DNA of 25,180 bases. Origin: a virus. The translations under genes were made by a program, and so were the position numbers. This document shows positions 967 to 15,979 of the stretch, one piece after another. The stretch spans positions 1 to 25,180 of the IMG/VR virus record IMGVR_UViG_3300042981_000019. One strand, written 5' to 3'. Position 1 is the first letter of the stretch. Each line of letters opens with the position of its first letter. The notes beneath the pieces are model-generated. The model made no database searches. It saw only the letters and a program-made list of their open reading frames with translations, and was not told the DNA's origin.

Positions 967-3333
967 ATGAGCGAGCAGCCCAGCACGACACCCGAGCAGT
1001 CCACGGAGCCCGCCGGGGTGTCGACCGCAGGGCAGCTGAACGTCCCCACCTCCAAGCAGGTCAGCCCGTCCCGGCCACGTCCGCTGCAGTCGCTGACCGC
1101 CTCGGCGCAGCGCCTGACCTCCGAGCACATCACCGCCCGCAGCGGGTTCGGCAAGGCCGAGGCGTGGCAGGAGGACGCCTGGGAGATGTTCGACCTGGTG
1201 GGCGAGCAGCGCTTCCTGTCCACCACGCTGGGCAACCGGCTGTCGCAGGCCCGCCTGTACGTGGGCCGCGTGCCGACCAACCCGGTCGAGGAGCCCGACC
1301 CGATCGAGGACAACGAGGGCCTGCCGGCGCGCGTGTTCGCTTTCTTCGGCACCAGCCCCGCCCAGCGCTCCCAGATGATCTCCCGGCTGGCCATCAACCT
1401 GTTCGTGGCCGGTGACGGCTGGTTCGCCGGGATCCCCAAGCACATGATGCCCGGCGCACCCCGGCGCATCGACCGCCCGAACCTCGAGGACTTGACCCTC
1501 GACGAGCTCGAGTGGCGGATGCTCAGCGTCTCCGAGGTGTCCTTCAACCAGGGACAGGTCACCCTGCGCCTCGGTGAGGACACCGACGAGCGGGTGGTCG
1601 CCAGCCCTGACTCGCTGTTCCTCGTGCGCTGCTGGAGGCCACACCCGCGTCGCTACTGGCAGGCGGACTCCCCGACCCGCTCCTCGTTGCCGGTGCTGCG
1701 TGAGCTGGTCGGGCTCACCATGTCCATCTCCGCTCAGGTCGACTCCCGCCTGGCCGGGGCCGGTCTGCTGATCGTGCCGCAGTCCGCCAAGCGCGCCTTG
1801 CAGGTGGCGGCCGGGATCCCCGAGGACAGCGACGAGGACCCGTTCACCGAGGCGCTGATGGAGGCGATGCTCACCCCGATCAGCGACCGCTCGTCTGCGA
1901 GCGCCGTGGTGCCGCTGGTCGTGGTGGTGCCCGACGACGCCGCCGACAAGTTCGAGCACATCACCTTCGACAAGCCCTACGACGAGCAGGCTCAGTCGCT
2001 GCGCGAGGAGGCCATCCGCCGGCTCGCCCTCGGCCAGGACGCCCCGCCGGAGCTGCTGCTGGGCACCGCTGGCATGAACCACTGGGGTGCGTGGCTGGTC
2101 CGCGAGGACGTGGTGACCACCCACATCGAGCCGCCGTTGGCGCTGATCTGCGATGCGATCACCACGCAGTACCTGTGGCCGGTGCTCATCGAGGCCGGGA
2201 TGAGCGAGACCGAGGCCCACAACTACGTGGTCTGGTACGACGTCTCCCACATGGTGCAGCGCCCCAACCGGCTCACCGACGCAATCACCTTGCACGACAA
2301 GGGTGCGATCAGCGACGACTCCCTGCGCGAGGCCGGTGGGTTCACCGACGACGACGCCCCGCCGCGCATCTCCCGTTCGGTCGAGCTGGCCGTGCAGATG
2401 GCGGTGGCGAACCCGGCGCTGGTGGACAACCTCGACCAGATCATCGCTGCCTTCGACAAGGTGCTCAACACGCCTGCACCCGCAGCCTCCTCGGATGTGC
2501 CGGAGCCGGGGCAGGACATCACGTCCACCGATGCCGCCACGCAGGCCGGTGAGGCGCCGGTCGACGAGAGCGCCCGCACCAAGCGCGAGCCGGGTGACCT
2601 GCCCGCCACCGAGGGCAGGACCCGCGCCTCCGAGCCGATGCCGGCGACCATGGCGATCCGCGCCGGGCTGACCGCAGCCGCCGACCCGCACGCCAGTGAC
2701 GACACCTCCGTGTGCATCGTGGCCACGCCCGCCCACCCGGACAACCTGCCCGGCCCGGAGACCAAGCACGCCACCCTCGTCTACCTCGGCAAGATGCTCG
2801 AGCCCGGCTACGACGAGGAGGAGATGGCCACCACCCGAGCGGCCATCGAGCAGGCGGTGATCTCCGTGGTCGACCACTCCGGCGTGGTGGAGGCGGACGT
2901 GGCCGGTGTCGCCCAGTTCCCGCCACACGGCGAGGACACCGACCCGCCCGCCACGGTGGTGCTGCTGCACAGCCCTGAGCTGGCGGCGATCCGTGAGGCG
3001 CTGCTGGCAGATCCCACCATCGCCAAGATCGTGGCCGAGGGCGACTTCACCAAGTACCCGAACTACCGTCCGCACGTCACGCTCGGCTACGGCGACGAGG
3101 TGAGCGAGGCGGACCGCGAGGTGGCCGACCAGCTGCGCAACCTGCAGTTCACCGGCATCGAGCTGTGGTGGGGCGACGAGCGCGAGCACTTCAGCCTTGG
3201 TGACGACCTCGGGCCGGACGAGACCAACACACTGACCGAGGGTAGCCCGGAGACCACGCTGGGCAAGGTCGCGCAGGCTGCCGACGACGCGGGCACCATC
3301 ACCAAGATCGTGGCGGACGGAGAGACGAAGTGA
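967..3333 (+). CDS. Portal protein with C-terminal 2H phosphoesterase-like domain (788 aa)
   Basis: The first ~500 residues look like an actinophage portal: a Pro/Thr-rich start, then segments such as TLGNRLSQARLYVGR and WRMLSVSEV and a Gln/Arg-rich helical stem. The portal forms the dodecameric DNA gate at one capsid vertex. After a Pro/Ala/Asp-rich linker (about residues 500-575) comes a second domain at about 579-730 carrying two H-x-T motifs, HATLVYLG (H601, T603) and HVTLGYG (H703, T705), about 100 residues apart. A strand opens the domain and a helix follows the first motif. This is the signature of the 2H phosphoesterase (LigT/2'-5' RNA ligase) superfamily. Both motifs look intact, so activity is plausible. 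At 788 aa it is much longer than the usual 450-550 aa portal. The ATG at 967 has GGAG upstream. The reading frame is continuous, so this is a genuine fusion in the sequence. Confidence 0.8.
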   Translation: MSEQPSTTPEQSTEPAGVSTAGQLNVPTSKQVSPSRPRPLQSLTASAQRLTSEHITARSGFGKAEAWQEDAWEMFDLVGEQRFLSTTLGNRLSQARLYVGRVPTNPVEEPDPIEDNEGLPARVFAFFGTSPAQRSQMISRLAINLFVAGDGWFAGIPKHMMPGAPRRIDRPNLEDLTLDELEWRMLSVSEVSFNQGQVTLRLGEDTDERVVASPDSLFLVRCWRPHPRRYWQADSPTRSSLPVLRELVGLTMSISAQVDSRLAGAGLLIVPQSAKRALQVAAGIPEDSDEDPFTEALMEAMLTPISDRSSASAVVPLVVVVPDDAADKFEHITFDKPYDEQAQSLREEAIRRLALGQDAPPELLLGTAGMNHWGAWLVREDVVTTHIEPPLALICDAITTQYLWPVLIEAGMSETEAHNYVVWYDVSHMVQRPNRLTDAITLHDKGAISDDSLREAGGFTDDDAPPRISRSVELAVQMAVANPALVDNLDQIIAAFDKVLNTPAPAASSDVPEPGQDITSTDAATQAGEAPVDESARTKREPGDLPATEGRTRASEPMPATMAIRAGLTAAADPHASDDTSVCIVATPAHPDNLPGPETKHATLVYLGKMLEPGYDEEEMATTRAAIEQAVISVVDHSGVVEADVAGVAQFPPHGEDTDPPATVVLLHSPELAAIREALLADPTIAKIVAEGDFTKYPNYRPHVTLGYGDEVSEADREVADQLRNLQFTGIELWWGDEREHFSLGDDLGPDETNTLTEGSPETTLGKVAQAADDAGTITKIVADGETK

Positions 3334-4025
3334 GCGACCTGAGCGTGCAGGTGATGGAGCGGACCGACCCCAGGCTGGGCCGTCAGGTCGTCCACGACGA
3401 GCGCAGCCGTGGCTTCGTGCTCACTGGGACGCAGGCGCCGGCCATCGACAAGAGCACCTGGCACACCAAGTCCGTGCGCGTCTACGACCCGCTGCCCAAT
3501 CCCAACCAGGTCATCGGCAACTGCACGATGTGCGCGAAGGCGATGCAGCTCAACACAATCGGCAACCGGGTCAAGGGTCGCGTGCTCGACATGGGCTGGG
3601 CGACCAAGGGCTACAGCCTCGAGACGAGCATCGACCCGTTCCCCGGCACCTACCCGCCCGACGACACCGGCTCCTCCGGTCTGGCCTCGGCCAAGGCCGC
3701 CGTCCAGCTCGGTGTAGGTGGCAGCTACTGGTGGATCTTCACCGGGGCCGATGGTGTCGTGCAGGCGATCATGGGCGGCTACGCGATCAGCGTCGGCACC
3801 CGCTGGGACAACAACATGTTCGAGCAGGACTCCCGTGGCCGCATCCGTCCCGGTGGCGGCGTGGCCGGTGGCCACCAGTACGTCTATCGAGGCTACGACG
3901 AGCGCCACGACGAGCTGATCGGGCGCTGCTGGTGGGGCTCTTTCCGCGACTTCCGGATCGCGCGCACCGACGCCGACGAGCTGCTGGGCGACTCCGGTGA
4001 CGCCCACTGGCAGGCGAGCGCGTGA
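3330..4025 (+). CDS. Papain-like cysteine peptidase fold protein (231 aa)
   Basis: The pattern fits the C1 papain fold. Near residues 59-70, NQVIGNCTMCAKA mirrors papain's oxyanion Gln and CxxC nucleophile segment, with C68 at the catalytic position. H182 is followed six residues later by Gly-Tyr, as in papain's HAVxxxGY. A Trp-Gly at 202-203 corresponds to the conserved NSWG, but the Asn position is a Cys (C200). The core therefore has Cys and His but not the canonical Asn. Activity is possible yet uncertain; the protein could be a structural derivative. It starts at GTG 3330, overlapping the portal stop (GTGA), and ends in the same kind of overlap with the next gene, so it is coupled to the portal. 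No signal peptide or membrane segment is seen, so a role in the capsid or inside the cell is more likely than secretion. Confidence 0.55.
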   Translation: MSDLSVQVMERTDPRLGRQVVHDERSRGFVLTGTQAPAIDKSTWHTKSVRVYDPLPNPNQVIGNCTMCAKAMQLNTIGNRVKGRVLDMGWATKGYSLETSIDPFPGTYPPDDTGSSGLASAKAAVQLGVGGSYWWIFTGADGVVQAIMGGYAISVGTRWDNNMFEQDSRGRIRPGGGVAGGHQYVYRGYDERHDELIGRCWWGSFRDFRIARTDADELLGDSGDAHWQASA

Positions 4026-4537
4026 GCGAGCCGATCCCCTGCCCGGTCTGCGGCTCCTACTCGGGAGCCTCGCTGGCCACGCCGAGCCCGCTGCTGGCGG
4101 TCTGCGACGTGCTGGTGATCCGGGCCCTCGAGGTGGCGGGCAAGCGGATCGTGCGGGCCGAGCGCAGCCGGTTCCGCGCGCTTGGCACCCGCCCGATGCA
4201 CGTCGCCCACACCATCTGGCGGCCCACGCCTGAGCAGGTCGCCAAGGCGCTGCAGAACGCGTGGGCCGTGGTGCCGGTGCTGCTCGAGTCCTACGGCTGC
4301 TGCAACCTGACCGCTCGGCAGGTTACCGAGTGCCTGGACCGGTATGCCGCCGACCTGCTGATCACCGGCACAGCGCACAGCGTCGACGAGCTGCGCTACC
4401 GCTTCTCCGCCGTGCTCGGCATCGACCTGCCCACCCCGCACCGCCACGACGCGCCCTACCCGCGCCCCGAGCACTCACCGGCACTGACCGGACCTGCCCG
4501 GGCGTTCCCAAACCACAACGGCGGCCTGCGGCCATGA
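4022..4537 (+). CDS. Hypothetical head-region protein (171 aa) with N-terminal CPVC
   Basis: Not recognised. The protein opens with a Cys-Pro-Val-Cys knuckle at residues 7-10. A helical body follows, including YGCCNLTARQVTECLDRYAA around residues 90-115 and a Tyr/Arg-rich helix after it, and the tail is rich in Pro and His. It is predicted soluble, with no membrane segment. The GTG at 4022 overlaps the stop of the papain-like gene, and its own TGA overlaps the next ATG, so it sits in the middle of a translationally coupled string from portal to 4913. That position between portal and MuF-like protein suggests a minor head or virion-assembly role, but this is inference only. Confidence 0.6.
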   Translation: MSEPIPCPVCGSYSGASLATPSPLLAVCDVLVIRALEVAGKRIVRAERSRFRALGTRPMHVAHTIWRPTPEQVAKALQNAWAVVPVLLESYGCCNLTARQVTECLDRYAADLLITGTAHSVDELRYRFSAVLGIDLPTPHRHDAPYPRPEHSPALTGPARAFPNHNGGLRP

Positions 4538-6495: not shown

Positions 6496-7614
6496 ATGGG
6501 CCTCACGCTCGTCTCGGTGCTCGATGAGAGCTGGCCCGTCGCCTCGGACCCACCCGTCACGCCGACCGCCGTCACCACCTCCACCAACGACGGTGGGGCG
6601 GTGGTGTCGTGGTACTCCCCGGACGACGCGGAGGTCACCTCCTACGTCATCACGCCCTACGTGGCCGGTGTCGCGCAGGCTCCGACGACGGTGGTCGCCG
6701 GCAGCGAGACCACGCTGGCCGACTCCTACGGCGGCACGGCGCGGCAGGCGAGCGTGTCTGGCCTGGCCAACGGCACCGCGCACACGTTCACCGTCAAGGC
6801 CTCCCGCGCCGGGGTCGACAGCGCCGAGTCGGCTGCCTCCGGCGCGAACACGCCGCTGGCCGACCTCGTGTTCGGTGACGACTTCAACGGCCCGGCCGGT
6901 GCCGCCCCCGACCCCGAGTGGTGGGTCTACGACCGCTGTGGCTACCTCGCGCAGAACGAGGTGCAGTGGTACAAGCCGGACCACTGCGTCCTCGATGGTG
7001 CTGGTCACCTCAAGGTCACCGCCGAGCACGTCCCGCAGACCGGCACCACCTACCCATCGGACGGCAACCGCACCATCACCCAGCCGTGGACCTCCGGCGC
7101 GTGCCAGTCCAACGCCCGCACCTACGAGCCCACGCCCGGCAACACGATGGTGTTCGAGGCCAGCTTCCAGGTGAACCCGCACGCCGGGTCCGGGTACTGG
7201 CCGGGCTTCTTCTGGCTCGAGGGCCACACCTACCTCGACGCGTGGAAGACCGACCCGCTGCAGGAGGGCTGGGACTCCACCGGCAAGGCCGAGATCGACA
7301 TTGCCGAGTGGTTCCAGTCCGGCTCGCCCGACTCCTATGGCAACGTGTCGTGGGCTGGCACCAACGAGCAGCACATGGTCAGCGCCTCGGGACTGTCCAC
7401 CTCCCAGCACGTCTACCGCTGTGAGTGGAAGCCGGGAGTGACCGTGCGGTTCTACCGGGACAACTCCCTGACCTACACCTCCACCCAGCAGATCCCCGAC
7501 GCCGGGGCGCAGTTCTTCCTGATGCTCTACATGCAGATGCTCGGCGGCGGGCTGACCACCACCGAGTCCGCCTACGTCGACTACGTGCGCGTCTACGACC
7601 GAGACCTCGGCTAG
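6496..7614 (+). CDS. FN3-GH16 glycoside hydrolase, virion-associated (372 aa)
   Basis: Residues ~17-112 form a fibronectin type III domain (starting near TPTAVTTSTNDGGAVVSW and containing GLANGTAHTFTVKA). Residues ~118-372 match glycoside hydrolase family 16: VFGDDFNGPAG start, a central EIDIAEW with the catalytic E-x-D-x-x-E signature (E266, D268, E271), HVYRCEWKPG, and a C-terminal YVDYVRVYD strand. Known GH16 enzymes with this bulged motif cut beta-1,3 or mixed glucans and other polysaccharides by a retaining mechanism. The active site looks complete. No signal peptide is seen, which fits a virion component delivered on the particle. Neighbouring genes are fibre-type proteins, so it probably trims host surface polysaccharide during adsorption. 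Substrate cannot be told from sequence. Confidence 0.8.
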   Translation: MGLTLVSVLDESWPVASDPPVTPTAVTTSTNDGGAVVSWYSPDDAEVTSYVITPYVAGVAQAPTTVVAGSETTLADSYGGTARQASVSGLANGTAHTFTVKASRAGVDSAESAASGANTPLADLVFGDDFNGPAGAAPDPEWWVYDRCGYLAQNEVQWYKPDHCVLDGAGHLKVTAEHVPQTGTTYPSDGNRTITQPWTSGACQSNARTYEPTPGNTMVFEASFQVNPHAGSGYWPGFFWLEGHTYLDAWKTDPLQEGWDSTGKAEIDIAEWFQSGSPDSYGNVSWAGTNEQHMVSASGLSTSQHVYRCEWKPGVTVRFYRDNSLTYTSTQQIPDAGAQFFLMLYMQMLGGGLTTTESAYVDYVRVYDRDLG

Positions 7615-7623
7615 GAGACGACC

Positions 7624-9492
7624 GTGCCGCTCACGTACACCGACGTAGCCTCCTGGCTGACACCCGGAACTGGAACCTCCCCGACGCAGTACAAGGAGGT
7701 CACGGTCAGCGCCGGCGTCGGGGACCTCATCGTCGCCTTCGGTATGTCCGACTGGGGGCGTAGCACCACCCAGTCCGTGGTAACCCAGTCCGGCACGGGC
7801 GCGACCAGTGCATGGTCGGTTCTCTACTCGTCCACCTCGACCACCGACTGCGCCTTCATCGCCGCGCGTGCTACCTGCACCACGGCAGGCACGCTCACCA
7901 TCCGGGTCACCGTGGGCACCCACACCAACTCCAACATTGGCGTAGGTGTGTTCGTGATCCCGGCAGCGGAGTGGACCGGCACTCCTACGTGGGCCACGCT
8001 AGGCCCAGGTGACCCAGACGCCCTCGTGACTGTGAGCATGGCAGCCACCTCCACGGTGCTGTACATGGGTGGGGACTGGGATGCAGCCGCACCGGGCTCC
8101 ACGGCCACGCCAGCGGGAGCCACGCTCGACGACAACACCTTCGGCTCCGGCTCCTATGACGTGTTCATCGCCCACTGGACCGGGCAGGCGTCGGGGTCGC
8201 GCAGCTACGGACCTGCTGCACCTGCTGGTGCGACGTGGATCGGCGGGGCGCTGGCCATTCAGGAGGTCGGCGGCCTGCCGGTCGTCAACGTGTCCCTGAC
8301 CGGGCAGCCGATGGGCAGCACCACGGGGATGCCAGCCGGCACCGTGGACGTCACCTCCGAGGGGAACGTCAACCTGACCGGCCAGGCTGTCGGCAGCACC
8401 ACCGGGGCACCGCCCGGCTCGCTGACCCTGACCACGAACATCGAGCAGACCGGCGACTCGGCCGGGTCCACCTCGGGTATGCCGCCCGGGACCTTGACCA
8501 TCACCAGCAACGTCGAGCTGACCGGACAGCCGATGGGCTCGACCACTGGCATGCCGCCGGGCACGGTCACCACCTCGAGCGCCAAGCACGCCTCGGGCGG
8601 GTCCACTGCCACCGTCACGATCACCTCGAGCGGCGGCGGTGCCAAGGCTACCTCGGGCGGATCCGCCACCGACGTGAGCGTGACCACCTCGAGCGGTGGG
8701 GCCAAGACCGGCGCGGGCGGCTCGGCGGCAGCCGTGGACGTCACGACCAGCGGCGGCGGCACCCGTGCCACGAGCGGCGGCTCGGTGGCCACCGTCGACG
8801 TGAGCTCCACTTCGGGCGGCGTGAAGGCGACCTCTGGTGGGTCGGTCACGTCGGTGAGCGTCAGTGCCAGCGGCGGCGGCCTGGCCTACCGGTTCGGCGG
8901 CTCGACGACGGGCGTGGTCGTGACGGCCACCGGCGGCGGGCACGCCAACGTAGCTGGCCGTGGCGGGTCGACCACGATGGTCCTCGCCACGGCCAGCGGG
9001 GACGGGACCAAGCACGGACGTGGCGGCTCGGTTGCGCAGGTCGAGACCACCGGCAGCGGTGGCGGGTCCAAGTCCACCTCGTCAGGCTCGACCGCTCAGG
9101 TCACCGTCACCGCGACCGGCGGAGGCCACGCCAACCAGTCCGACCAGGGCGGTTCGACTACGACCGTCACGATCACCGCCACCGGCGCCGGGGCCAAGAC
9201 GGGCCGGGGTGGGTCGGTCGCCCTCGTGCAGGTGCTGGCCAGCGGTGGCGGGTTCAACCCCGGCAACCCGGCCGGAGGCTCTACTGCACTGGTCGAGGTC
9301 ACCGGGAGCGGGGCCGGTACCAAGCACGCCTACGGTGGGTCGACGGCCACGGTGTCGGTGGTCGCCAGTGGTGGCGGGCGGAACCCGGCGCGGCTGCTGG
9401 TCACCCCGGCATGGAGGACCACCAAGGTGCCTGCGCCACGCCGCACCTATGTACCGAGCAGGAGGCGAGTCATCGTCGTGGACAAGGAGTGA
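7624..9492 (+). CDS. Long repeat-containing tail fibre-type protein (622 aa)
   Basis: Three parts are visible. Residues 1-~220 are a beta-rich globular head. Residues 222-321 hold four 24-26-residue repeats around LTGQPMGSTTGMPPGTV. Residues 322-587 are 13 uninterrupted repeats of 20 or 22 residues built on GGSTATVTVTASGGGxK. A basic tail with PAPRRTYVPSRRRVIVVDKE follows. Such short Gly/Ser/Thr repeats alternating with Val-rich strands suggest an elongated beta-structured shaft, as in fibres. The start is GTG 7624 with AGGAG just upstream. The following gene encodes a fibre-tail adaptor-like protein, which supports the fibre assignment. The repeats differ in sequence but keep exact length, so selection acts on geometry. 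No enzymatic motif is seen. Confidence 0.7.
   Translation: MPLTYTDVASWLTPGTGTSPTQYKEVTVSAGVGDLIVAFGMSDWGRSTTQSVVTQSGTGATSAWSVLYSSTSTTDCAFIAARATCTTAGTLTIRVTVGTHTNSNIGVGVFVIPAAEWTGTPTWATLGPGDPDALVTVSMAATSTVLYMGGDWDAAAPGSTATPAGATLDDNTFGSGSYDVFIAHWTGQASGSRSYGPAAPAGATWIGGALAIQEVGGLPVVNVSLTGQPMGSTTGMPAGTVDVTSEGNVNLTGQAVGSTTGAPPGSLTLTTNIEQTGDSAGSTSGMPPGTLTITSNVELTGQPMGSTTGMPPGTVTTSSAKHASGGSTATVTITSSGGGAKATSGGSATDVSVTTSSGGAKTGAGGSAAAVDVTTSGGGTRATSGGSVATVDVSSTSGGVKATSGGSVTSVSVSASGGGLAYRFGGSTTGVVVTATGGGHANVAGRGGSTTMVLATASGDGTKHGRGGSVAQVETTGSGGGSKSTSSGSTAQVTVTATGGGHANQSDQGGSTTTVTITATGAGAKTGRGGSVALVQVLASGGGFNPGNPAGGSTALVEVTGSGAGTKHAYGGSTATVSVVASGGGRNPARLLVTPAWRTTKVPAPRRTYVPSRRRVIVVDKE
8287..8586 (+). repeat. 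Four 24-26-codon tandem repeats (TGQPMGSTTGMPPGT type)
   Basis: Four in-frame units of 26, 24, 24 and 26 codons account exactly for the 100 codons. Core residues T-G-x-x-x-G-S-T-x-G-x-P-x-G are kept. The first and fourth units are nearly identical in the core (GQPMGSTTGMP[A/P]GTV). Confidence 0.85.
8587..9384 (+). repeat. Thirteen 20/22-codon tandem repeats (GGSTATV type)
   Basis: Ten units of 20 codons and three of 22 codons fill the 266 codons with no remainder. Each unit has G-G-S (one S-G-S) at positions 4-6, a hydrophobic strand at about 10-12, and a Gly-rich turn at about 16-18. The 22-codon units are numbers 6, 9 and 11, each with a two-residue extension after the Gly turn. The DNA is diverged, so this is an old, functionally constrained array. 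Confidence 0.9.
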
Positions 9493-9873: not shown

Positions 9874-12800
9874 ATGGCACCCAAGACCGCCCAGCACCAG
9901 CACCTGGTGATCGACGAGGACAGCGGGGCCCTGCTCTCCTCCACCACCCTTGTCGCATCTGCTGCGACCCTCGAGGCCGAGACCGAGGAGCCGTGCACCC
10001 CGTGCGCCGAGCGCGCGGCCGAGGCCCAGCGGCTGCGCACGGAGCGCATGACTCGCGAGGGTTTCCGCTCCGAGGCCGCACCCGCACCCGAGGACGGTGA
10101 GCAGACCCTGCCGGCCACGTGGTCGGGCCCGATCGGGGTCGAGGGCGAGCTGACCGGTGACGGCCGCCTGATCCTGCCCGACGCGCTGCGCTGGGACATC
10201 TCCGAGGACTCCCCAGCACCGCTGCGCTTCGTCTCCGCCGATGTGGGCGCGCACCAGGGCGCTCAGGTGGTCGGGCGGATCCTCGGTGTCGAGCGCCGCG
10301 AGGGTGGGCTGATCTGGGGCCACGGCGACTTCGACCTGGACTCCGAGGTCGGCCGGGAGGCCGCCCGCGTCGTCGGCAAGAAGCTGCAGGACGGTGTGAG
10401 CATGGACCTGGACGACGTGGCCTTCGAGGTGCGCGTGGCCGCCGACGCCGTGGCTGCCATGACAGGCGACGGCGAGGGCACCCTGACGCTGGCCGCACCG
10501 GATGAGGACGGGCGCATCTCCATCAAGGAGGTCGCGCCCGACGACGAGGTGATGGTCACCACCGACGCCCGCATCCGCGCGGCGACCATCGTGGCCGTGC
10601 CCGCCTTCGCCAGCGCGCGCATCTCCCTGACCGCCTCCGGCGCGATGCCGGTCACTGACCTGCTCGGCATCACGCTGCCCAAGCGCTGGGCGCTGACCGC
10701 AGCGGCTGCCACCGATGTGTTCGGCATGGGCGCCGGCGAGGTGGGCGAGCTGCTGCTCGGGCAGGCCCTCGAGGACGGGATCGTCTACGAGGCCGGGGTC
10801 CGCGACGACGGCGCGATCATCTTCGACATCGCCACCGACTTCAACTGGGTCGACAAGGTGGGCGGGTTGCCGAAGAAGATCCGCCACATCGCGGACAAGC
10901 TGATGGAGAAGGGCAAGACCGAGGGCCACGCCATCGCCATCGCCGTCAACGCGGTCAAGAAGGGCTGCGCCACCGGAGACCTCAACTTCCCCGGCGTGCA
11001 GGACATGAACCCGGGCAGCCGGGCCGAGTACTGCGCCGCCGCTGCCGAGTGGGAGGCGAAGAAGAAGGCAGCCAAGGCTGCCGGTGCCACCACGGAGACG
11101 CTTGCCGATACCGCGACCATGGACGCACCAGCGGGAGTCGCTGCGCCCGCTGGTGCTCCCGCGCAGGGCGTGCCGGTCGCCGCGGGTGGTCTGCACCTGC
11201 CGAGCGAGTCCAGCCAGAAGCGGCCCGACACCTACCGCGAGGTCTCCGACGCCGAGCGCGAGCGGCTGGCCAAGGAGGGCAAGGCGATGCCGGACGGCTC
11301 ATTCCCGGTGGCCGACGTCGACGACCTGAAGAACGCGGTGCAGGCAGCCGGGCGCGCCAAGAACCCCAAGGACGTGCACGCCTTCCTGAAGAAGCGCGCC
11401 AAGGAGCTGGACGCCTCAGACCTGATCCCGGGCGACTGGGCTGCGCTGGTGGCCAGCGCAGGCCTGCTGCCGTTCTCCTACAACCCCGACCAGTGGCGCA
11501 ACCCCGACGACGGCAAGTGGATCGACATGCCGGACGTGGCGCTGCACAAGGTGCTGGACGCCATCGGCCCCACCTTCGGGAACGAGGAGGGCACCAACGC
11601 GGTGCAGATCGCGCAGATCGCGGCGGACAACTTCAACACCTCGAAGGAGGCCAAGAAGGACACCGGTCCGATCAGGGCAGCTCTTGGCGGGCTGGAGGTC
11701 GCCTTCGGAGGTCAGGACGAGGATCTCGACCAGGACATCGCCAAGGCGAATGATGCTGTCTCCGCCTACGAGACCGGCTACATCCCCGAGGAGCAGACTG
11801 ACCTGACCAATCCCGAGGAGACCGACATCGGTGCCGACGACGCGCCCGACGCCACCCTCGAGGAGCCTGCCCCCTCCGCGCCCGACGCGCCAGAGGGATG
11901 GACTCAGGAGGCCGATGGCATCGTGGACGGTGACGGCTGGATGGTGTCCAACGAGCATGAGGGTGGCTTCGACCTCTACGACCCGGCCGGCCTGCGCATC
12001 GAGAGCTACCCGACGCAGGAGGAGGCCATCGCTGGACGGGATGCCCACAAGGAGGGTGGTACGCGGGGAACCGACACCAGCGGCGGCGGCTCGAGCGCGG
12101 GCGAGGACGACTCATCGACGACACCTGCCCCGGACACCACGATGCCTGCTGCACCTGATGCGGGGGCTACCGACGAGGATGTCCAGAACCTCGTGAGCGA
12201 CCTCGCGGACCGTGGCATCGAGATCACGCCCGAGCAGGCTGCGGATGCCATCGAGTACTACGGCGACCCGGATGCTGCTCTGGAGGAGATCCTCACCAAC
12301 GGCGGCTACGGGGCGGTGACGGCTGCTGCGCCGCCGGTCGACCCTGACCTGCCGCCGGCACGCTTCTTCTCCAACCCGCAGCTCAAGGGCCCGACGCCGC
12401 TGACCGTGACCGACGAGGGCCACGTCTACGGCCACCTCGCCACCTGGGACACCTGCCACCTGAGCCACACCCAGCTCGGGCGCTGTGTGAAGCCGCCGCG
12501 CTCCCGCTCCGGCTACGCCTACTTTCTGACCGGGGCCGTCCGCACCGCTGAAGGCTCCGAAGTGGCGGTCGGCCAGATCACCCTGGACACCCGGCACGCG
12601 GACGAGGCGTTCAACGCGAAGACGACGCTGGCGCACTACGACCACACCGGGCTGGCCGCCGCCGACGTGAGCGTGGGCGACGACGCCTACGGGATCTGGT
12701 TCTCCGGTGCGCTGCGTCCCGGCCTGACGCCCAAGGACGTGCGGGTGCTGCGCGCCTCCCCGATGAGCGGGGACTGGCGGCGGATGGGCACCGGCATGGA

Positions 12801-13131
12801 GCTGGTCGCCGCGCTGTGCGTCAACGTGCAGGGCTACCCGATCCCGCGTCCTCGCGGGCTGGTCGCCTCCGGTGCGATGCAGACCCTCGTGGCGGCCGGG
12901 ATGCTGGCCCCGCGCAAGGTGATCAAGCCGGGCACGCCTGGCGCGCTGTCCACCGACGACCTGCGCTACCTCAAGCGGCTGGCCGCTCGGGAGCGGGCCG
13001 AGGAGGCGGCGTCCAAGGTCGACCTGCTCGACCGCGCGGCGGTGCTGTCGCGCAAGCTGCGGGCCAGCGAGATGGCTGCTCGCGTAGCCTCGATGTCGAC
13101 GACCACCATCACGGATGAGGGAGGGCAGTAG
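9874..13131 (+). CDS. S78-type prohead protease in a 1,085-aa multidomain protein
   Basis: Residues ~85-260 match the HK97-type prohead protease (peptidase S78): H127 in ADVGAHQGAQVVGRI and S176 in GVSMDLDD, 49 residues apart as for His65 and Ser114 of HK97 gp4. Residues ~330-395 (KKIRHIADKLMEKGKTEGHA, then GSRAEYCAAAAEWE) and ~450-530 (PDGSFPVADVDDL ... GRAKNP, DUF6582-like) are modules often found with actinophage proteases. An acidic linker follows, with a UBA-like helical patch at ~765-808. Residues ~827-990 form a second conserved domain (GPTPLTV, VYGHLATWDTCH, AHYDHTG with H921, SPMSGDWR with S965). The end is coiled. Expected role: cleaving the scaffold part of the capsid protein during maturation, and possibly acting as scaffold itself. 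ATG 9874 has AGAGGA 7 nt upstream. Confidence 0.8.
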   Translation: MAPKTAQHQHLVIDEDSGALLSSTTLVASAATLEAETEEPCTPCAERAAEAQRLRTERMTREGFRSEAAPAPEDGEQTLPATWSGPIGVEGELTGDGRLILPDALRWDISEDSPAPLRFVSADVGAHQGAQVVGRILGVERREGGLIWGHGDFDLDSEVGREAARVVGKKLQDGVSMDLDDVAFEVRVAADAVAAMTGDGEGTLTLAAPDEDGRISIKEVAPDDEVMVTTDARIRAATIVAVPAFASARISLTASGAMPVTDLLGITLPKRWALTAAAATDVFGMGAGEVGELLLGQALEDGIVYEAGVRDDGAIIFDIATDFNWVDKVGGLPKKIRHIADKLMEKGKTEGHAIAIAVNAVKKGCATGDLNFPGVQDMNPGSRAEYCAAAAEWEAKKKAAKAAGATTETLADTATMDAPAGVAAPAGAPAQGVPVAAGGLHLPSESSQKRPDTYREVSDAERERLAKEGKAMPDGSFPVADVDDLKNAVQAAGRAKNPKDVHAFLKKRAKELDASDLIPGDWAALVASAGLLPFSYNPDQWRNPDDGKWIDMPDVALHKVLDAIGPTFGNEEGTNAVQIAQIAADNFNTSKEAKKDTGPIRAALGGLEVAFGGQDEDLDQDIAKANDAVSAYETGYIPEEQTDLTNPEETDIGADDAPDATLEEPAPSAPDAPEGWTQEADGIVDGDGWMVSNEHEGGFDLYDPAGLRIESYPTQEEAIAGRDAHKEGGTRGTDTSGGGSSAGEDDSSTTPAPDTTMPAAPDAGATDEDVQNLVSDLADRGIEITPEQAADAIEYYGDPDAALEEILTNGGYGAVTAAAPPVDPDLPPARFFSNPQLKGPTPLTVTDEGHVYGHLATWDTCHLSHTQLGRCVKPPRSRSGYAYFLTGAVRTAEGSEVAVGQITLDTRHADEAFNAKTTLAHYDHTGLAAADVSVGDDAYGIWFSGALRPGLTPKDVRVLRASPMSGDWRRMGTGMELVAALCVNVQGYPIPRPRGLVASGAMQTLVAAGMLAPRKVIKPGTPGALSTDDLRYLKRLAARERAEEAASKVDLLDRAAVLSRKLRASEMAARVASMSTTTITDEGGQ

Positions 13132-14143: not shown

Positions 14144-14170
14144 CATCTCATCAAGATGAGGAGCCCCGCA

Positions 14171-15979
14171 ATGGGTCAGAACCACAGCCAGCCCACCTAC
14201 CTCGACAAGTCCGTGGTCTACACCACGCAGTACGCCGAGGCCACCGAGGGTGACGACGAGGACCTGGTGATCCCTCAGGACCTCACCGAGGTCCCCGACT
14301 CCGACCTCGCCGGTCTGCACAGCTCGGCGGTCGAGGCGTTCAACGCCCTCTACGACGGCGGCAACGCCCAGCTCTCCGAGGACGACCTCAACGCCCTGTC
14401 GGTGCTCACCGAGGGCATCGAGCGCGTGCAGGCCGAGCTCGACTCCCGCAAGGGCAAGGCAGACGAGCGCGCACAGGCCGCGACCGAGCTGGCCGCCCGT
14501 GCCGGCCTCAAGGGCGAGGAGAAGCCCGAGACCGACGCGGCACCCGAGGGTGACGCGGCAGCCGCCGAGACCAGCGGTGAGCAGACGCTCGCCACCGAGA
14601 CCAAGCCCGCCGAGATCCGCGTGAGCCTCGCGGGTCTGCGCAACCGGCAGACGACCGCCTCCACCACCCAGCACTCCGCCGAGGCCGAGGCGGGCGACGG
14701 GCCCAAGACGATGGCCGACATCGTGAAGGCCGCGCCGGAGTTCGCCGGCTTCAAGGCCGGCCAGGGCCTCGACTGGTCCGCGATCGGTCGTGGGCTGGAC
14801 CGCCGGTTCGGCTCTTTCAACCGCAGCCAGTACCAGCAGGCCCACGACTCCGGCCGTGCGCTGCGCCAGCAGGTCGGCTTCGCGGTCATCGAGAAGCCCT
14901 TTGCGCCGGACATGGTGCTCAAGAGCAACGACCCGATCCACATCGACGAGCTGCTCCAGCGCGCCGCCAAGGAGTCCCGTCTGCCGGGCAACTCCCTCGT
15001 GGCCGCCGGTGGCTGGTGCGCACCGAGCGAGACCATCTACGACCTGTGCGAGCTGGAGAGCCGCGACGGTCTGCTCTCGGTGCCGGAGATCGGTGTCACT
15101 CGTGGTGGCATCAACTTCACGCCCGGCCCGGACTTCAAGGACATCTTCGCCAACGTGGGCTTCGGCTACACCGAGGCCGAGGACATCGCGGGCGACTACG
15201 ACGGCGCAGGCGGCGGCTCCAAGCCGTGCTACGTCGTGGACTGCCCGGACTTCCAGGACGTCCGGCTCGGCTACGACGGCGTGTGCATCAGCGCCGGTCT
15301 GCTTCAGCAGCGTGGCTACCCCGAGGTCATCGCGCGCACCACGCGCGGCGCCCTCGTGGCCCACGACCACAAGGTGGCCGGGAAGGTCATCGCGGCCATC
15401 GCCGCCGGGTCCACCGCCGTGACGATGCCCGCTGCGCAGGTCGGTGCGGTCGCGCCGATCCTGACGGCCATCGAGCTGCAGGCCGAGCACATCCGCTACG
15501 TCAACCGGCTCGGGCGCAACGCCTCCCTCGAGGGCATCTTCCCGTACTGGGTGCGCGGCGCGATCCGCTCCGACCTCTCGCGTCGTCTCGGCGTCGACCT
15601 GCTCGACGTCTCGGACGCGCGGATCGACGGCTGGTTCACCGACCGTGGGCTGGCCCCGCAGTTCGTGTACAACTACCAGGACCTCACTGGGGCGGCCGGC
15701 ACCTTCGTGGCATGGCCGACCACGATGACCTTCCTGATGTACCCGGCGGGCACCTGGGTCAAGGGCGCGGCGGACATCATCACCCTCGACACCGTGTACG
15801 ACTCGGTGAACCTGGGGACCAACGACTTCACCGCACTGTTCTCCGAGGAGGGCTGGCTCGTCGCCAAGCTCTGCAACGACTCCCGCGCGGTGACCGTCAA
15901 CATCTGCCCGGACGGTGCGACCCACGGCGGCGTCTCGATCGACTGCAACGGCGCGGCCGCAGCCACCGCCGACATCTGA
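14171..15979 (+). CDS. Major capsid protein with N-terminal scaffold-like domain (602 aa)
   Basis: Residues 1-~180 are acidic and helical (QLSEDDLNALSVLTEGIERV, a Lys/Glu/Ala-rich coiled coil, then a TTAS-rich stretch), typical of a delta/scaffold segment removed by the prohead protease. The rest has HK97-fold capsid character: a conserved entry near PFAPDMVLKSNDPIHIDELL, GGWCAPSETIYDL, a glycine-rich loop, and a C-terminal region with ADIITLDTVYDSVNLGTNDFTALFSEEGW. All eight cysteines lie in the mature part. The second ATG (14171) is chosen because GAGGAG at 14158-14163 is 7 nt upstream; the earlier ATG at 14156 lacks a site. The gene follows the protease, and a hairpin lies on either side. 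Confidence 0.85.
   Translation: MGQNHSQPTYLDKSVVYTTQYAEATEGDDEDLVIPQDLTEVPDSDLAGLHSSAVEAFNALYDGGNAQLSEDDLNALSVLTEGIERVQAELDSRKGKADERAQAATELAARAGLKGEEKPETDAAPEGDAAAAETSGEQTLATETKPAEIRVSLAGLRNRQTTASTTQHSAEAEAGDGPKTMADIVKAAPEFAGFKAGQGLDWSAIGRGLDRRFGSFNRSQYQQAHDSGRALRQQVGFAVIEKPFAPDMVLKSNDPIHIDELLQRAAKESRLPGNSLVAAGGWCAPSETIYDLCELESRDGLLSVPEIGVTRGGINFTPGPDFKDIFANVGFGYTEAEDIAGDYDGAGGGSKPCYVVDCPDFQDVRLGYDGVCISAGLLQQRGYPEVIARTTRGALVAHDHKVAGKVIAAIAAGSTAVTMPAAQVGAVAPILTAIELQAEHIRYVNRLGRNASLEGIFPYWVRGAIRSDLSRRLGVDLLDVSDARIDGWFTDRGLAPQFVYNYQDLTGAAGTFVAWPTTMTFLMYPAGTWVKGAADIITLDTVYDSVNLGTNDFTALFSEEGWLVAKLCNDSRAVTVNICPDGATHGGVSIDCNGAAAATADI

Follow-up and report, generated by a model that had tools for sequence, protein, structure and literature searches.

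Fusions of a 2H phosphoesterase domain to MuF or portal domains were described by Iyer et al. in 2017 (PMC5512222). The passages of that paper which deal with these fusions propose that the proteins are packaged and injected and act as RNases or degrade defence nucleotides, and they discuss in general terms the release of polyvalent domains by a peptidase. A survey from 2022 (PMC9503650) repeats both the 2H-portal fusion and the injection idea. In the corresponding passages of the two papers neither a common junction motif nor a release of 2H from the portal by the maturation protease is put forward. Two further viral 2H enzymes are relevant here. Acb1 (T4 57B type) is an anti-CBASS phosphodiesterase and a free protein, and the avian poxvirus cGAMP phosphodiesterase (9bkq) belongs to viruses of eukaryotes and has no capsid-protein fusion partner. 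Avian poxvirus enzymes in the penguinpox cGAMP phosphodiesterase class degrade cGAMP, as does Acb1 (PMC11410667).

The stretch of DNA analysed here, in the following called the window, is a virus record of 25,180 bases in which end repeats were not found. GC is about 70% across its first 14 kb, and its genes code for head and tail proteins of an actinophage-like siphovirus. One open frame codes for a portal with a C-terminal 2H phosphoesterase: the portal family phrog_776 matches residues 26-570 (E 3e-125) of the same open reading frame that holds 2H at residues 577-746, which is the combination of 2H and portal in a single frame described by Iyer et al. The portal-2H fusion is already known as a kind and is not new, although the phage lineage of the window is new relative to the fusions in their passages. 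The view of the first-pass annotation, that the portal fusion and its purpose are under-described, is at variance with the passages of both papers, which give 2H-MuF and 2H-portal fusions together with the same purpose. The present analysis adds that the junction has a motif in common with other head proteins and that the portal fusion probably arose more than once. Neither was found stated in the open-access literature searched, nor was a paper found there that treats a cleavage site or a delta domain together with the maturation of actinophage capsids. The features of the gene are:

967..3333, plus strand: portal-2H fusion gene, 788 aa in a single open frame
1042..2475, plus strand: portal core of the phrog_776 family, residues 26-503, with 54-59% identity to Microbacterium phages Leaf, Hendrix and Rasputia
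2476..2667, plus strand: Pro/Ala/acidic linker, residues 504-567, no predicted secondary structure and very low pLDDT in a low-confidence full-length portal model, which was used solely for this unstructured linker
2668..2685, plus strand: junction motif LTAAAD, residues 568-573, predicted maturation-protease site, aligned with IAASA/IAASG near the portal C-terminal ends of relatives
2695..3204, plus strand: 2H phosphoesterase fold, residues about 577-746, from profile, AF2 model and structural comparison
2767..2775, plus strand: catalytic motif 1, H601-x-T603, conserved in the homologue alignment
3073..3081, plus strand: catalytic motif 2, H703-x-T705 (PHVTLGY), conserved in the homologue alignment
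3205..3333, plus strand: C-terminal tail, residues 747-788, of low confidence in the structure models

The portal stop is overlapped by a gene for 231 aa (3330-4025), which matches the peptidase family phrog_16701 (E 5e-25) and also Gordonia phage genes annotated as cysteine protease; lying between the portal-2H gene and the next gene, it could be extra head cargo or a processing enzyme. The next gene (4022-4537, 171 aa) matches columns 517-619 of phrog_776, which are the C-terminal part of the portal profile. Many relatives have this domain fused to the portal; it is separate in Microbacterium phage Jayden (gp21), as judged by sequence, and in the window, where 2H and the peptidase gene intervene between the two portal halves. 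A 372-aa protein among the head genes (6496-7614) has fn3-like (24.8 bits) and GH16-like (18.0 bits) matches, both below the Pfam cutoffs, and is a possible glycan-binding or glycan-cutting capsid decoration. The 622-aa protein encoded at 7624-9492 has a long degenerate Gly/Ser/Thr repeat run (GGSxxxVxVTxSGGG) and no family match.

The first-pass annotation placed a 2H domain of the LigT/Acb1 type at the portal C-terminus, and this is confirmed by the family profile together with the predicted structure. PF13563 (2'-5' RNA ligase superfamily) matches with 29.4-30 bits when the domain is used alone (cutoff 27) and with 26.6 bits when the whole portal is scored. An AF2 model covering residues 568-756, made from an alignment of 56 viral-contig homologues, has a mean pLDDT of 89.5 and a pTM of 0.84 and shows the bilobal LigT-like fold. 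Compared to solved structures with VIA-align it gives Z scores of 14.0 for a Thermus LigT-like protein, 13.1 for human Usb1, 12.6 for E. coli LigT, 12.2 for the phosphodiesterase domain of rotavirus VP3, 10.3 for the penguinpox cGAMP phosphodiesterase and 10.1 for phage Acb1; the Foldseek matches are consistent with these. Five residues of the model (H34, T36, P135, H136 and T138) are invariant in the 56 aligned rows. They include H601, T603, H703 and T705 of the portal, which lie where the earlier annotation had put them, and the two HxT/S motifs are kept in all 73 distinct homologues. Two of the outcomes that would have spoken against the first-pass annotation, a different fold and homologues without the histidines, are thus not seen. 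The motifs alone are weak evidence, because shuffling the C-terminal tail produces two or more HxT in 17% of cases. The interval 2701-3160 given earlier for the domain covers the right region and is slightly short, the fold including two more strands at its end. With the conserved H-x-[TS] pair, the fold and the profile score the domain has the properties of the 2H superfamily, and phosphodiesterase activity is predicted. As to narrower classes, PF02834 (LigT_PEase) matches 23 of the 56 family members; the domain itself stays below the cutoffs of the Acb1 family PF23474 (18.7 bits vs 27) and of the ThpR/LigT equivalog TIGR02258 (11.3 bits vs 65.7), and PADLOC gave no match.

When viral contigs were searched with the single 2H protein of the window no relatives were found. 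The family alignment found 114 relatives, of which 80 were retained, and the portal alignment used against genome contigs found one distant locus. Most of the viral-contig homologues are polyproteins with 2H between a MuF and a protease domain. Head proteins carry the domain in cultured phages too, as the first-pass annotation had suggested: the carriers in Arthrobacter (Pureglobe5, SilentRX) and Microbacterium (Hyperion, OneinaGillian) phages bear the annotation capsid maturation protease, in many cases together with MuF. They belong to the same 2H family as the window, and several have LTAAA or LTASA at the 2H edge; they differ in that 2H is carried by the MuF/protease protein and not by the portal. 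In Gordonia, Streptomyces and Rhodococcus phages the domain is annotated as RNA ligase or found as a standalone gene. The nearest 2H domains of cultured phages are all below 60% identity to that of the window, and those listed below 35%. 2H is a mobile head-protein module which is found chiefly inside MuF-2H-protease polyproteins.

Fusions to the portal are rarer. Apart from the window they were found in the Rogerhendrixvirus phages Hendrix, Leaf, Dewdrop and Rasputia, whose proteins are labelled merely "portal protein" in GenBank with 2H unannotated, and in one contig (L047) whose portal is from a different family, PF04860. The Rogerhendrixvirus portals resemble that of the window in the core (54-59% identity) and have a C-terminal 2H with HLTLAYL and RPHVSL, but their 2H is only about 29% identical to that of the window and follows an extra Cys-rich module. 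In the nearest viral-contig relatives of the window portal (L012-L017) the tail is short or unrelated and contains no 2H. AU tests that placed the window and Rogerhendrixvirus in one clade reject a single shared origin of their fusions, both for the portals (p=0.003) and for the 2H domains (p=0.033). On these trees portal-2H fusions therefore probably have at least two independent origins, three counting L047; repeated loss of 2H along the portal tree is an alternative to separate fusions that keeps some probability. An apparent portal-MuF-2H polyprotein in another contig (L053:3020-6061) crosses a frameshifted, N-containing stretch of low quality and is probably an assembly artefact.

Two other modules were noted in the same set. 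Six 2H genes outside polyproteins (L036, L088, L092, L094, L110, L113) have H(Y/F)GVKGMKWG, or a sequence very like it, a short way C-terminal of 2H; the motif is also known from other phage head proteins. A small CxxC...C/H module (KCKYCEVPATQYVLHSEGMAYVPACDDH) precedes 2H or MuF in three carriers (L114 ORF 5152-7854 and the portals of L002 and L005); in L114 it is flanked on both sides by the same VAA motif, and it looks like another portable module.

The junction between portal and enzyme deserves a closer description. LTAAAD lies directly N-terminal of the 2H fold, 33 residues before H601 (typically 30-38 in relatives), and aligns at the position shortly after which the portals of close relatives stop, where these have IAASA, IAASG or LAASG. 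The motif is common to the junctions between scaffold and core in many related major capsid proteins (ITAAADVPGFATG, IVAAANIPGFNSG, ITAAADVPGF...) and is present in the interdomain linkers of protease polyproteins. In a strict form, [VIL][TV]A[AS][AG][DNE], it was counted in four sets: capsid-protein representatives (31 proteins, 18 occurrences, 0.47 expected), with almost all of these where scaffold meets core; protease representatives (42 proteins, 20 occurrences, 1.09 expected); portal representatives (34 proteins, 3 occurrences, 0.41 expected); and other genes, whose 9,451 aa contain none. A looser form is found in the N-terminal region of 22 of the 32 capsid-protein representatives (3.9 expected). 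Around 2H the looser form is found upstream in 13 of 40 representatives (0.46 expected) and downstream in 12 of 49 (0.5 expected); inside the domain it is not enriched (2 of 50, 0.88 expected). The motif expression behind these counts was chosen after inspection of the data, and the sequences are related and not fully independent; after clustering at 40%, only 3 of 13 upstream linkers have it (0.11 expected). Several related portals of the EC type have no such motif at their ends, and in the Rogerhendrixvirus fusions a clear motif was not found just before 2H. Two other genes of the window are of importance for the question of cleavage:

9874..13131, plus strand: polyprotein with the head maturation protease, a candidate for the processing enzyme; [VIL][TAV]A[SA][GA] is present 7 times (0.43 expected)
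14156..15979, plus strand: major capsid protein with N-terminal scaffold domain, phrog_777, canonical motif not found at its scaffold junction

The simplest reading of these sequences is that LTAAAD would be recognised by the prohead maturation protease, with 2H being freed when the capsid matures. Portal C-termini normally face the capsid lumen. The first-pass annotation pictured 12 copies fixed at the DNA exit; this is unsupported, and 2H may not stay on the portal because the junction resembles a maturation-protease site. The model we propose postulates that the intact enzyme rides in the head as portal-borne cargo, is freed by the maturation protease, is ejected and cuts a nucleotide signal or an RNA end, and we give it a probability of about one half. 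We infer cleavage, packaging and substrate as follows. The protease would cut the portal within residues 568-573 while the capsid matures, giving a portal of normal length and a free 2H enzyme of about 23 kDa in the lumen, up to 12 copies of it. The enzyme would leave the head with the DNA during ejection and hydrolyse a host-defence nucleotide signal or an RNA end early in infection; it is the location in the head that argues for such an early action. In a more general form, for which we see the arguments as evenly balanced, the motif [VIL][TV]A[AS][AG][DNE] would serve both capsid maturation and the freeing of enzymatic cargo in actinophages of this head type. 2H would then be a portable cassette added at an existing portal processing site, so that maturation doubles as the loading of a free anti-defence enzyme.

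Other models for the junction have to be considered. 2H could stay uncut, in which case the portal crown would bear up to 12 copies within the head; these would act there or only once the portal contacts the cell. The single open frame, the Rogerhendrixvirus portals with no clear motif before 2H and the window capsid protein with no canonical site all fit such a model. The window junction, however, reads LTAAAD without deviation and lines up both with the conserved IAASA at which relatives' portals end and with the capsid-protein junctions, and cytoplasmic substrates are hard to reach from a fixed portal ring; we consider an uncut domain unlikely, though well worth keeping in mind. Somewhat less probable still is that LTAAAD was merely inherited as the N-terminal border of the 2H module and is no protease site. 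The modules are homologous and the motif is at a fixed distance from them like an inherited leader, but the same motif is found at capsid scaffold junctions, at downstream edges of 2H, in other polyprotein linkers and at portal ends without 2H. A free 2H could also be made with no proteolysis at all from an internal start, two in-frame ATG codons (at about 2638 and 2650) being present just upstream of the junction. The nearest purine-rich stretch (gagggcagga) is about 17 bases upstream of the first of them, too far for a good ribosome site, and such a start is very improbable.

The substrate is the least certain step of the release model, and the most likely candidates would be CBASS-type cyclic oligonucleotides or related 2'-5'/3'-5' signals. 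The 2H family profile has its best match to a solved structure in the penguinpox cGAMP phosphodiesterase (9bkq, E=1.2e-6). By structure the highest Z scores are to RNA-end enzymes (LigT-like and Usb1), above Acb1 and the cGAMP phosphodiesterase, differences for which domain size partly accounts. An RNA-end enzyme of the LigT/Usb1 type would open 2',3'-cyclic phosphates or trim RNA that nucleases of the host defence have cut, or be an injected RNase acting on host RNA. To this the LigT_PEase matches within the family may be added, and the passages by Iyer et al. (2017; PMC5512222) favour an RNase or the hydrolysis of 2'-5' oligoadenylate; the same passages state that such versions of 2H lack an association with RNA ligase, and among solved proteins it is the cGAMP enzyme which is closest by sequence. 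We hold the RNA-end activity to be possible, on the doubtful side, and a nucleotide-signal target to be somewhat more likely than an RNA end.

Should the junction motif prove to be a genuine maturation site, injected cargo in actinophage head proteins could be recognised by a sequence rule. Such a site would also explain how an enzyme can be built as part of the portal without blocking the DNA channel, and the prediction from 2017 would become directly testable in the cultured phages Hendrix, Leaf and Hyperion.
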